This document shows, one piece after another, positions 8,313 to 10,916 of a DNA stretch of 64,000 nt; position 1 is the first letter of the stretch; every line of letters begins with the position of its first letter. Made by a program: the position numbers and the translations under genes. The stretch spans positions 186,001 to 250,000 of the forward strand of contig NZ_VLNU01000001.1 of assembly GCF_009765165.1 (NCBI RefSeq), in the 5' to 3' direction. Origin of the DNA: Lysobacter panacisoli (GTDB taxonomy: Bacteria > Pseudomonadota > Gammaproteobacteria > Xanthomonadales > Xanthomonadaceae). The notes beneath the pieces were generated by a model. The model was not told the origin of the DNA. It saw only the letters and a program-made list of their open reading frames with translations, and ran no database searches.

Positions 8313-9290
8313 TCAGCCGCTCGCGGTACCGTGCGCGCCGTCCATGAAACGCGCCCTCGCCGCCTCCAGCGCGGCGGCCTCGCGCTGCGGATCGAACCAC
8401 TGCGCGTCGAGTTCGCCGCGCAGCCAGGTCAGCTGGCGCTTGGCGAGCTGGCGCGTGGCATATACCCCGCGATCGCGGAATTCGGCGGCGCCGGTGGCAC
8501 CGTCGAGGTGCTCCCACGCCTGGCGGTACCCGACCGCGCGCAGGGCCGGCAGTTCGAGCGGTGCCGGATGGTCGCGCAGTTCCGGCATGGCGCGCAGCGC
8601 GCGGACCTCGTCGAGAAAACCTTCGGCGAGCATCCGGTCGAAGCGATATTCGATGCGCTCATGCAGCACCGCGCGATCCTGCGGTGCCAAGACGAGGCGC
8701 AGCACGCGCACCGGCAGGGCCGGCGCGGCGGGAGCCTCGCGCCGCCAGTCGCTGATGGTGCGTCCGGAGAGGCGGTAGACCTCCAGCGCGCGCTGGATGC
8801 GCTGGGCATCGGTGGCGTGGATGCGCGCGGCCGCCTCAGGGTCGATCCGCAGCAGATCGGCATGCAATGCGGCCCAGCCGCGTTCGGCGGCCTCGCGCTC
8901 CAGGCTCGCCCGCGTCGCCGGATCGGCCTCCGGCATCGGCGACAGCCCGTGCAGCAGCGCGTGGAAGTACAGGCCGGTGCCGCCCGCCAGGATCGGCAGC
9001 CGTCCGCGCGCGAGCACGTCGTCCAGCGCGCGACGCGCATCAACCGCGAACTCCGCCGCCGAGTACGGCTGCCACGGTTCGCGCAGGTCGAGCAGATGGT
9101 GCGGCACGCGTTCGCGTTCCTGTGCCGTCGGCTTGGCCGAGCCGATGTCGAGGTGGCGGTACACCAGCGCCGAGTCGACGCTGAGGATCTCGCCGCCGAA
9201 GCGTTCGGCCCAGTCGAGCGCGAGCGCGGTCTTGCCCGACGCGGTCGGGCCCATCAGGGCAATCGCGATGGGGCGCGTATCGACGGGCAT
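8313..9290 (-). CDS. miaA: tRNA dimethylallyltransferase
   Basis: Adds a dimethylallyl group to N6 of A37 in tRNAs reading UNN codons, the first step of ms2i6A formation. The 325-residue product carries the P-loop GPTASGKT at residues 14-21, the [16 protein letters not shown] substrate segment and [11 protein letters not shown] 9290 ([14 protein letters not shown]) fits family length; the frame continues 19 codons upstream into non-conserved sequence. It begins the miaA-hfq-hflX block. Directly upstream lies the DnaA-box-like repeat region, so its promoter must be in or next to those repeats. Confidence 0.97.
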
Positions 9291-9365: not shown

Positions 9366-9467
9366 CTTTCCACAGACGCTGTGGAGAACCGCTGGGGCAA
9401 GGCTGTTGATAAGCGCCTGCGCCCCAGGCGTGGCAAGGCCCGCAGCAGGTTTGGCGATAATTTGGCC
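9366..9467. repeat. DnaA-box-like repeat unit 1
   Basis: Inverted boxes CTTTCCACA (9366-9374) and TGTGGAGAA (9380-9388, complement TTCTCCACA) are separated by 5 bp. A third box, TGTTGATAA at 9404-9412 (complement TTATCAACA, one base from TTATCCACA), begins 24 bp after the start of the second. The AT-rich tail GGTTTGGCGATAATTTGGCC spans 9448-9467. This is the most diverged unit. Confidence 0.7.
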
Positions 9468-9479
9468 AGTCGGGGACGA

Positions 9480-9582
9480 CTATCCACACCACCTGTGGAC
9501 AAGCCTGCGGACAGATGTGTGCAGAACCGTCGCATCGCCTGCAACGACGCGGGGCACGCCAAACATGGTCATAAATTCACCA
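9480..9582. repeat. DnaA-box-like repeat unit 2
   Basis: Inverted boxes CTATCCACA (9480-9488) and TGTGGACAA (9494-9502, complement TTGTCCACA) with a 5-bp spacer. A third degenerate box TGCGGACA begins at 9506, 12 bp after the second box. The AT-rich tail, ATGGTCATAAATTCACC, lies at about 9565-9582. Confidence 0.78.
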
Positions 9583-9658
9583 GCGGCCCGTCGCGGCCCG
9601 CGACGGATTTCCGTCGCCTTCGATCCACGCCGACGTGCGCGCCAACCGCGAACCGCGA

Positions 9659-9760
9659 CTATCCACACAACCTGTGGACAAACCTGCGGACAGAAATGTG
9701 GAGACAGGCCTGCACGCCTTGCCGCACAAGGAGCGCAAGAGGTTTGGCGAAAAATTGACC
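9659..9760. repeat. DnaA-box-like repeat unit 3
   Basis: Inverted boxes CTATCCACA (9659-9667) and TGTGGACAA (9673-9681) with a 5-bp spacer, and a third box TGCGGACA at 9685-9692. The AT-rich tail GGTTTGGCGAAAAATTGACC at 9741-9760 is nearly identical to that of unit 1. A further A-rich stretch follows. Confidence 0.78.
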
Positions 9761-9818
9761 GCAAAAATCGTTTGACATTCGCGTCGCTTGCACTCGACGA
9801 CGACACGCGCTGCCGCGA

Positions 9819-9919
9819 TTGTCCACAGCGCTTGTGGACAAGCATGCGGACATCCATGTGCGCATCACGCTGCAGCGCTTGCGGTGCAAGGGCTGCAGGA
9901 ATGTGGTCAATATTTGTCC
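9819..9919. repeat. DnaA-box-like repeat unit 4
   Basis: Perfect inverted pair TTGTCCACA (9819-9827) and TGTGGACAA (9833-9841), again with a 5-bp spacer, then TGCGGACA at 9845-9852. The AT-rich tail ATGTGGTCAATATTTGTCC (9901-9919) ends just before the folP stop codon. Confidence 0.78.
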
Positions 9920-9922
9920 AGC

Positions 9923-10822
9923 TTACTCGTCGTCGGGCCAGCGCGGCATCGCGGGGCCTGACTTCGCGCGCGGCATCGCCTGCGAGGCCACCGCGCTCCA
10001 TACCTTCAACGCATCGACCGTCGCCGCGACATCGTGCACGCGCAGCAGCTTCGCGCCGCGCTGTGCGGCGATGAGATGCGCGGCGACCGATCCGCTCGCG
10101 CGTTCGCGCGGATCGTCGCGCCCGGTGATCTCGCCGATCGTGCGCTTGCGCGACAGGCCCGCGAGCACCGGCACACCAAGTTCACCGAAACGTTCCAGCT
10201 GCGCGAGCAGCACCAGGTTGTGTTCCGTGTTCTTGCCGAAGCCGAAACCCGGATCGACGACGATCTTCTTCTTCGCGATGCCGGCCATCTCCGCGGCGAA
10301 GATGCGTTCGGCGAGGAAGCGGTGCACCTGCGCGACGACGTCGTCGTACTGCGGCGCCTGCTGCATCGAACGCGGCTCGCCCTGCATGTGCATCAGCACC
10401 ACCGGAACGCCGAGCGACGCCGCAGCATCGAGTGCGCCCTCGCGCCGCAGACCGTAGACGTCGTTGATCATGCCGGCGCCGGCCTGCACGGCGGCGCGCA
10501 TCACCTCGGGCTTGGACGTGTCGATGCTGATTGGCAACGAGGTTTCTTTCGCCAGCCGCTCGATCACCGGAATCGTGCGGCGCAGTTCTTCCTCGACCGG
10601 GACATCCGCCGCGCCGGGGCGCGTCGACTCGCCGCCGATGTCGAGGATATCGGCGCCCTCCTCCGCCAGCCGCAACCCGTGCGCCACCGCGGCTTCGAGC
10701 GTGTCGTGCGCGCCGCCATCGGAGAACGAGTCGGGCGTGACGTTGACGATGCCCATCACGCGTGGACGGTCGAGGATCAGCGGCCGTCCGTTGCAGTCGA
10801 GGATGAGCGTGGTGTCGAACAT
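9923..10822 (-). CDS. folP: Dihydropteroate synthase
   Basis: Condenses p-aminobenzoate with hydroxymethyl-dihydropterin diphosphate in folate synthesis; the target of sulfonamides. The 299-residue product has the pterin loop NVTPDSFSDGG at residues 27-37, the second signature DIGGESTRPGA, and the late RKRTIGEITGR segment. ATG 10822 (MFDTTLILDCNGRPL) fits the family; ATG 10855 and longer starts are possible, and none has a clear Shine-Dalgarno. It follows ftsH as in E. coli, but glmM, the usual next gene, is absent and the DnaA-box-like region follows instead. Confidence 0.97.
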   Translation of the reverse strand: MFDTTLILDCNGRPLILDRPRVMGIVNVTPDSFSDGGAHDTLEAAVAHGLRLAEEGADILDIGGESTRPGAADVPVEEELRRTIPVIERLAKETSLPISIDTSKPEVMRAAVQAGAGMINDVYGLRREGALDAAASLGVPVVLMHMQGEPRSMQQAPQYDDVVAQVHRFLAERIFAAEMAGIAKKKIVVDPGFGFGKNTEHNLVLLAQLERFGELGVPVLAGLSRKRTIGEITGRDDPRERASGSVAAHLIAAQRGAKLLRVHDVAATVDALKVWSAVASQAMPRAKSGPAMPRWPDDE

Positions 10823-10890
10823 GATCGTGGCCGTCGTCGTGGTGCGATGAAACATCTTACGGTCCGGCGCGACCGGCGGACGACAGGCAC

Positions 10891-10916
10891 AAAAAAGCCG
10901 GCACGGGACCGGCTTC
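10891..10916 (-). terminator. Terminator after ftsH
   Basis: On the minus strand GCCGGTCCCGTGCCGGC forms a hairpin followed by TTTTTT. It lies 25 bases after the ftsH stop and upstream of folP, so folP probably has its own promoter or depends on readthrough. Confidence 0.88.

Follow-up and report, generated by a model that had tools for sequence, protein, structure and literature searches.

A candidate array of four DARS-like DnaA-box modules in the folP-miaA spacer of Lysobacter panacisoli

The DnaA-reactivating sequences (DARS) have been characterized in Escherichia coli, where DARS2 needs IHF. A prominent feature of these elements is the pair of opposed boxes I and II carrying DnaA head-to-head, which is described as the means of ADP release in the available portions of PMC8682772 and PMC5742627. 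Consensus sequences for Fis (GnnYAnnnnnTRnnC) and IHF (TAAnnnnTTGATW) have been published, and the placing of both sites matters in DARS2 according to excerpts of PMC4245941, while DARS1 overlaps the DnaA-repressed uvrB promoter (PMC6015884, in excerpt). DARS-related sites are described in Vibrio cholerae and in E. coli-like Gammaproteobacteria (sections of PMC6090056 and PMC4245941), and those of V. cholerae are reported to share the E. coli locations, uvrB and mutH (work cited in the same sections of PMC6090056). In addition, ChIP-seq in E. coli has revealed double DnaA boxes that are 2-3 bp apart (PMC11317965, in part). By our own measurement, DARS1 of E. coli MG1655, located between bioD and uvrB, reads TTATCCACT-N5-TGTGGATAA-N3-TGTGTATTA, and the rppH-mutH region, which holds DARS2, contains two sites with the same I-N5-II-N3-III spacing, one of them with weak outer boxes that were read by eye.

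The window analyzed here, a stretch of 64,000 nucleotides from Lysobacter panacisoli, carries the gene order ftsH-folP-spacer-miaA-hfq-hflX on the minus strand. The spacer, which runs from the folP stop (9923) to the miaA start (9290) and is non-coding, harbors four TCCACA-N5-TGTGGA pairs with exactly 5 bp between the boxes of every pair (table 1). An initial annotation of this DNA had reported these four inverted pairs and counted eight boxes in 476 bp of non-coding DNA (9366-9841); the coordinates and a shuffle test agree with the former, and the latter was borne out as well. What it had left out is that each pair belongs to a larger unit, which, followed on the minus strand towards miaA, opens with a Fis-like palindrome and, after 38 or 39 bp, continues with boxes IV, III, II and I, separated by 3, 3 and 5 bp in turn. 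Nor did it contain the near-identity of modules 1 to 3, which share a 49-nt repeat in which two copies are 90% and 76% identical to the third. Module 4, adjoining miaA, represents a separate type with TTATCAACA as box IV and a degenerate box III. All three DARS-type core boxes, with I opposed to II and with N5 (I-II) and N3 (II-III) spacing, are thus found in three of the four units of the window, and the fourth comprises the I/II pair and the degenerate box III. From sequence and by analogy, the spacer may be read, with slightly better than even probability, as a tandem array of four DARS-like modules.

Table 1. Elements of the folP-miaA spacer and its two neighboring genes, in window positions
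Feature	Position	Strand	Basis
Module 4 (variant type), box I CTTTCCACA 9366-9374, N5, box II TTCTCCACA 9380-9388	9366..9388	-	pair search
Module 4, weak box III position TTGCCCCAG 9392-9400 and box IV TTATCAACA 9404-9412	9392..9412	-	unit alignment
Module 4, Fis-like palindrome GGCCAAATTATCGCCA, 39 bp past box IV	9452..9467	-	palindrome search
Module 3, box I CTATCCACA 9480-9488, N5, box II TTGTCCACA 9494-9502	9480..9502	-	pair search
Module 3, box III CTGTCCGCA 9506-9514 and weak box IV TTCTGCACA 9518-9526	9506..9526	-	unit alignment
Module 3, Fis-like palindrome GGTGAATTTATGACCA, 39 bp past box IV	9566..9581	-	palindrome search
Module 2, box I CTATCCACA 9659-9667, N5, box II TTGTCCACA 9673-9681	9659..9681	-	pair search
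Module 2, box III CTGTCCGCA 9685-9693 and box IV GTCTCCACA 9697-9705	9685..9705	-	unit alignment
Module 2, inverted repeat CTTG-N5-CAAG at constant position, flanked by box IV and Fis-like site	9718..9730	-	pattern search
Module 2, Fis-like palindrome GGTCAATTTTTCGCCA, 39 bp past box IV	9745..9760	-	palindrome search
Module 1, box I TTGTCCACA 9819-9827, N5, box II TTGTCCACA 9833-9841	9819..9841	-	pair search
Module 1, box III ATGTCCGCA 9845-9853 and weak box IV ATGCGCACA 9857-9865	9845..9865	-	unit alignment
Module 1, Fis-like palindrome GGACAAATATTGACCA, 38 bp past box IV	9904..9919	-	palindrome search
miaA, downstream neighbor, outside element	8313..9290	-	TIGR00174, E 2.8e-90
folP, upstream neighbor, outside element	9923..10909	-	TIGR01496, E 7.4e-100

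It is the arrangement of the boxes, rather than their number, that is exceptional in the window. With up to one mismatch allowed, TCCACA-N5-TGTGGA occurs four times, against a mean of 0.06 and a largest value of 1 in 100 dinucleotide shuffles. The loose 9-mer YNNTCCACA, by comparison, showed no window-wide enrichment (15 against 10.6 expected), and its count was dropped as evidence. Extending the pair search to the genome (3.88 Mb in two contigs) returned five exact pairs, four in the folP-miaA spacer and the fifth upstream of priA; all five have the N5 spacing, and none with another spacing was found in a scan of spacers from 0 to 15 bp. Similar pairs at many unrelated loci would, by the initial annotation, have refuted its reading, and just one other site exists in the genome. 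The stricter 9-mer YTRTCCACA is present 34 times in the genome, six of them in the spacer.

The anatomy of the unit was examined on 67 Lysobacter units chosen by the I/II pair with one mismatch allowed per half, so that boxes I, II and the N5 are given by the search, while boxes III, IV and the palindrome are independent of it. Removal of identical 47-mers left 65 units for alignment, of which ten are variant units with GCCCC at the place of box III; among the remaining 55 of the main type, box III starts with TGTCC in 53 and equals TGTCCGCA in 44. At an offset of 12 bp, box III was detected with no more than two mismatches in 50 of the 67 units, and at none of ten neighboring offsets. Box IV is weaker (26/67 at the 24-bp offset under the same threshold). 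The palindrome query GGYCAAWWWTTCGCCA found its best match at a gap of 38-39 bp from box IV in 64 of the 67 units, with 0-5 mismatches as compared with typically 6-7 on shuffled sequence. An exact CTTG-N5-CAAG was also observed in 22 of the 67, at one constant position between box IV and the palindrome, against 0.04 units on average in shuffles. In the arrays upstream of miaA, the aligned units point box I at miaA.

The palindrome resembles a Fis site. The published Fis consensus occurs exactly at one place in the spacer, at 9905-9919 in module 1, that is, in one of the four units of the window; at the palindrome place of the 67 Lysobacter units it is exact in 16; tolerating one mismatch raises this to 57, but a different place in the unit then matches in 25/67 as well. 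A search of the spacer for the IHF consensus gave no match with zero or one mismatch, the best two matches having two mismatches. The genome encodes an Hda homologue as well as a Fis homologue with 46% identity to its E. coli counterpart across residues 22-97.

Compared with the described systems, the array shares with DARS1 and DARS2 of E. coli the opposition of boxes I and II at 5 bp, a weak box III in tandem 3 bp from box II, the intergenic location and the distance from oriC, and the I-N5-II-N3-III spacing of DARS1 is that of the Lysobacter unit. It differs from them in having four tandem modules, an extra box IV and a Fis-like site 38-39 bp from box IV, as well as in the lack of a detected IHF site. 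It also lies at folP-miaA, with a second site at priA, whereas the E. coli elements lie at uvrB or mutH. The core of the priA site in the L. panacisoli genome is close to DARS1. At the position of the accessory palindrome, E. coli DARS1 has only a half-match with four mismatches at a gap of 38, and the equation of this stretch with the palindrome was rejected. The available sections of PMC6090056 do not mention arrays for the DARS-like sites of V. cholerae; Lysobacter forms arrays. With datA, the array has in common that both are non-coding DnaA-box clusters away from oriC, but the closest inverted boxes of E. coli datA are 3 bp apart and the I-N5-II-N3-III core is absent there. An identity with datA was rejected on box layout, and the spacer is also devoid of a good IHF match. 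The tandem boxes II-III and III-IV, 3 bp apart, are reminiscent of the double boxes of E. coli, beyond which the array also has boxes I and II opposed at 5 bp and, at a constant distance, the Fis-like site. The initial annotation had likened the locus to datA/DARS; the DARS half of this interpretation gained support from the core geometry and from the constant distance of the Fis-like partner site, while the datA half was not supported.

Conservation of the spacer in relatives, which the initial annotation had named as a check, was observed. We inspected 80 named loci around miaA homologues, of which 2.5 kb were seen; in 26 of these folP was not in view, so that the folP-miaA interval is incomplete. 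Two or more exact pairs (2-10 each) lie upstream of miaA in 14 of the 80, all from Lysobacter, Vulcaniibacterium or a strain named Lysobacteraceae bacterium P. A single pair was found in six loci, exact in two of them and carrying a mismatch in one half in the other four; in 60, no pair was present within the 2.5 kb. The largest array, in L. antibioticus HS124, comprises ten exact pairs over 2.07 kb. In L. enzymogenes and strain yr284, a second four-core array with the same box III is located 58-60 kb from the folP-miaA array (L197 2134-2727; L198 1644-2238). Loci with putP between folP and miaA vary: nine keep their units between folP and putP, at a distance from miaA (L051, L052, L057, L066, L108, L110, L111, L113 and L128), with the unit of L113 reversed, whereas units adjoin miaA in L038 and L120, in which putP lies between folP and miaA, and in L047, in which folP is not adjacent. 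These three loci refuted the assumption that an intervening putP always confines the units to the folP side. No pair was present in 28 named loci with putP. Seven loci from Stenotrophomonas and one from an uncultured member of the Lysobacterales have folP and miaA abutting, without a unit.

The module is also found at other genes. A 47-column sequence model of the unit gave matches with E < 1e-9 in seven of 79 family genomes (4 of 53 genera), and TTGTCCACA-N5-TGTGGA occurs in 33 of the 79, with folP, priA and other genes among its locations and further copies in the vicinity of miaB and of a pssA-like gene (with a score just below the family cut-off). Of 34 such elements from beyond the three main array genera, 31 had the best palindrome match at a gap of 37-39, with a shuffle p of at most 0.05 in 26 of these; the better of the two strands was taken per site in this test, which introduces a mild bias. 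The priA site of the L. panacisoli genome (C1:1190305-1190331, with the exact pair at C1:1190313; about 1806-1832 of L009) reads TTATCCACA-N5-TGTGGATAA-N3-TGTGCATGG and carries the palindrome with two mismatches at a gap of 38 (shuffle p 0.02). In four other Lysobacter genomes, the priA core keeps boxes I-III while the N5 sequence is free, and the palindrome is present in three of the four.

On a broader scale, TNTCCACA-N5-TGTGGANA-N4-TG, a pattern that itself required TG at the start of box III, was found exactly in 80 of 143 genomes covering 142 families of Gammaproteobacteria, and its reversed control in none; three such cores within 400 bp were observed only in the genome of the window. 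We assembled 50 class-wide loci from 27 genomes, ten from the pattern search and 40 hand-picked (large contigs, several per genome), of which 30 have the best palindrome match at a gap of 37-38. The Fis consensus is exact at the palindrome place in 23 of the 50, whereas other places average 0.13 per window. The palindrome is missing from several class-wide cores, for example from all five dispersed cores of one genome (G118, L218-L222). For the flanking genes, 40 further hand-picked loci, partly overlapping the first 40, were included, which gave 49 distinct loci since L284 repeats L187, with flanks of mostly 1-4 kb on each side. In 17 of the 49, the core is no more than 200 bp from priA (L246, L252, L255, L261, L263, L265, L268, L271, L274, L275, L278, L279, L281, L283, L193, L194 and L196), and box I faces priA in all 16 readable cases, one locus matching on both strands.

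Two explanations can be set aside. The cluster combines DnaA boxes with AT-rich stretches, as origins do, and could in principle serve as an auxiliary or plasmid-like replication origin, yet this is highly improbable. The dnaA gene lies 1.28 Mb away at C1:1472209-1473519 with DnaA boxes on either side, and GC skew over 21 sampled stretches switches sign near dnaA and not at the spacer: the nine stretches up to 1.19 Mb are negative, those from 1.8 to 3.2 Mb positive and that at 3.4 Mb negative, with mixed values around the switch (+0.003 at 1.30 Mb, -0.021 at dnaA, +0.001 at 1.60 Mb). A second oriC was ruled out by this skew and by the position, in agreement with the initial annotation, which had placed the chromosomal origin elsewhere. 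Furthermore, no initiator gene is among the identified neighbors, the AT-rich stretches are short Fis-like sites at fixed places and not a long unwinding region, and a dnaA match is absent from the flanks of all 49 class-wide loci. Provided that the 3.73-Mb contig is a circular chromosome, the cluster is located at about 0.68 of the replichore from dnaA; in the relative G065 (one 3.86-Mb contig, dnaA at 149 bp), the unit by miaA at 1.27 Mb is at about 0.66, these two genomes being weak evidence of a conserved chromosomal position. Structured RNA hairpins, in the form of a small RNA array or a leader instead of protein-binding DNA, are just as implausible: each pair is an inverted repeat able to form a 9-bp hairpin, but in 49 aligned units no pair had changes on both sides, the variation following the degeneracy of DnaA boxes instead, and one terminator-like signal was counted against 0.7 expected. 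The absence of covariation and of any Rfam match in the spacer led us to discard hairpin or small RNA candidates.

Two live rivals of a DARS-like role are promoter control and titration. In the former, which the initial annotation had also proposed for miaA-hfq-hflX, the region would be a DnaA- and Fis-responsive promoter that couples expression of the adjacent gene, namely miaA-hfq-hflX at the spacer and priA at the second site, to replication; we regard this as a minority possibility, about one chance in four. What speaks for some promoter role is the uniform orientation of the cores before priA, together with the units next to miaA and the overlap of DARS1 with the uvrB promoter mentioned above; box I faces miaA in the arrays, and units adjoin miaA even where putP or another stretch separates that gene from folP. 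Against a role as promoter only stand L131, from another genus, in which two modules lie between the convergent 3' ends of a transporter-permease-like gene and miaB, and the nine loci with units between folP and putP, away from miaA and in one case reversed. In other genera, the module is found at unrelated genes, and a sigma-70-like scan of the spacer found no promoter, which is weak evidence as such a scan covers one promoter type. The mixed putP layout slightly lowered our estimate for DnaA reactivation and raised that for promoter control. A titration sink, in which the array would lower free DnaA until saturated and would not catalyze nucleotide exchange, appears less probable still. It would agree with dense boxes in a box-poor genome, given the share of YTRTCCACA sites in the spacer, and with a copy number that varies from 2 to 10 exact pairs between species, as expected if site number alone matters. 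However, a sink needs neither fixed N5/N3 spacing nor a Fis-like site at constant distance, both of which are kept in the spacer and in many class-wide loci, and this rigid spacing argues against plain titration; a location some two thirds along the replichore, counted from oriC, would also be poor for a gene-dosage sink.

DnaA reactivation, in turn, is favored by the geometry shared with DARS1 and DARS2, by box III and the palindrome at fixed places, by the exact Fis consensus at the palindrome place in many class-wide cores, by the uniform N5 of all exact pairs in the genome, by the resemblance of the priA core to DARS1 and by the Fis and Hda homologues. It is weakened by the spacer lacking an IHF site and by a locus that is not at uvrB or mutH, by a Fis-like site that is exact in only a minority of the Lysobacter units, by the single orientation at priA and of box I towards miaA, as a promoter element would have, and by the half-match in DARS1 together with the class-wide cores that have no accessory site. 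In such a mechanism, DnaA would bind the strong opposed pair I/II of each module, and the weak boxes III and IV would take up further DnaA, lengthening the complex in tandem, while a Fis-like protein bound some 40 bp beyond, at a constant helical phase, would bend or clamp the assembly. Head-to-head contact on I/II would then cause ADP-DnaA to release its ADP, as described for E. coli DARS, and thus return initiation-competent DnaA to the cell, several tandem modules raising the dose; an effect on the timing of initiation would be expected to follow.

More tentatively, and with somewhat less than even odds in our judgment, the Gammaproteobacteria may share an ancient portable DnaA-reactivation cassette, composed of III-II-N5-I and a Fis-type palindrome about 38 bp away and often placed before priA. 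Such a cassette would have been amplified in Lysobacter into tandem arrays that pace DnaA recharging by copy number, with DARS1 and DARS2 of E. coli as relocated, simplified members. The core is of a known kind (DARS). As far as our searches of the open PMC literature show, the tandem arrays, the four-box form, the class-wide Fis-type site at fixed distance and the priA linkage are new; no paper on such elements in Lysobacteraceae or at priA was found in open PMC full text, a scope outside of which most subscription journals fall. With a class-wide sequence definition (N5/N3 core plus Fis-type site), DnaA recharging could be tested in many bacteria, the arrays constitute natural copy-number variants among relatives, and the recurring link to priA would join replication restart to initiation control.

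Several minor observations accompany these results. The cores of L218 and L219, with the sequence TATGCACAGATTTATCCACA, closely resemble that of the Lysobacter priA site. A core neighbors uvrB, the gene of E. coli DARS1, in L272. In L264 the neighbor is DNA polymerase I, to which proteins encoded in L245 and L270 are related. Finally, the 148-kb second contig of the L. panacisoli genome carries two DnaA-box 9-mers 1.2 kb apart (C2:130491 and 131674), which perhaps belong to a replication control region of its own.
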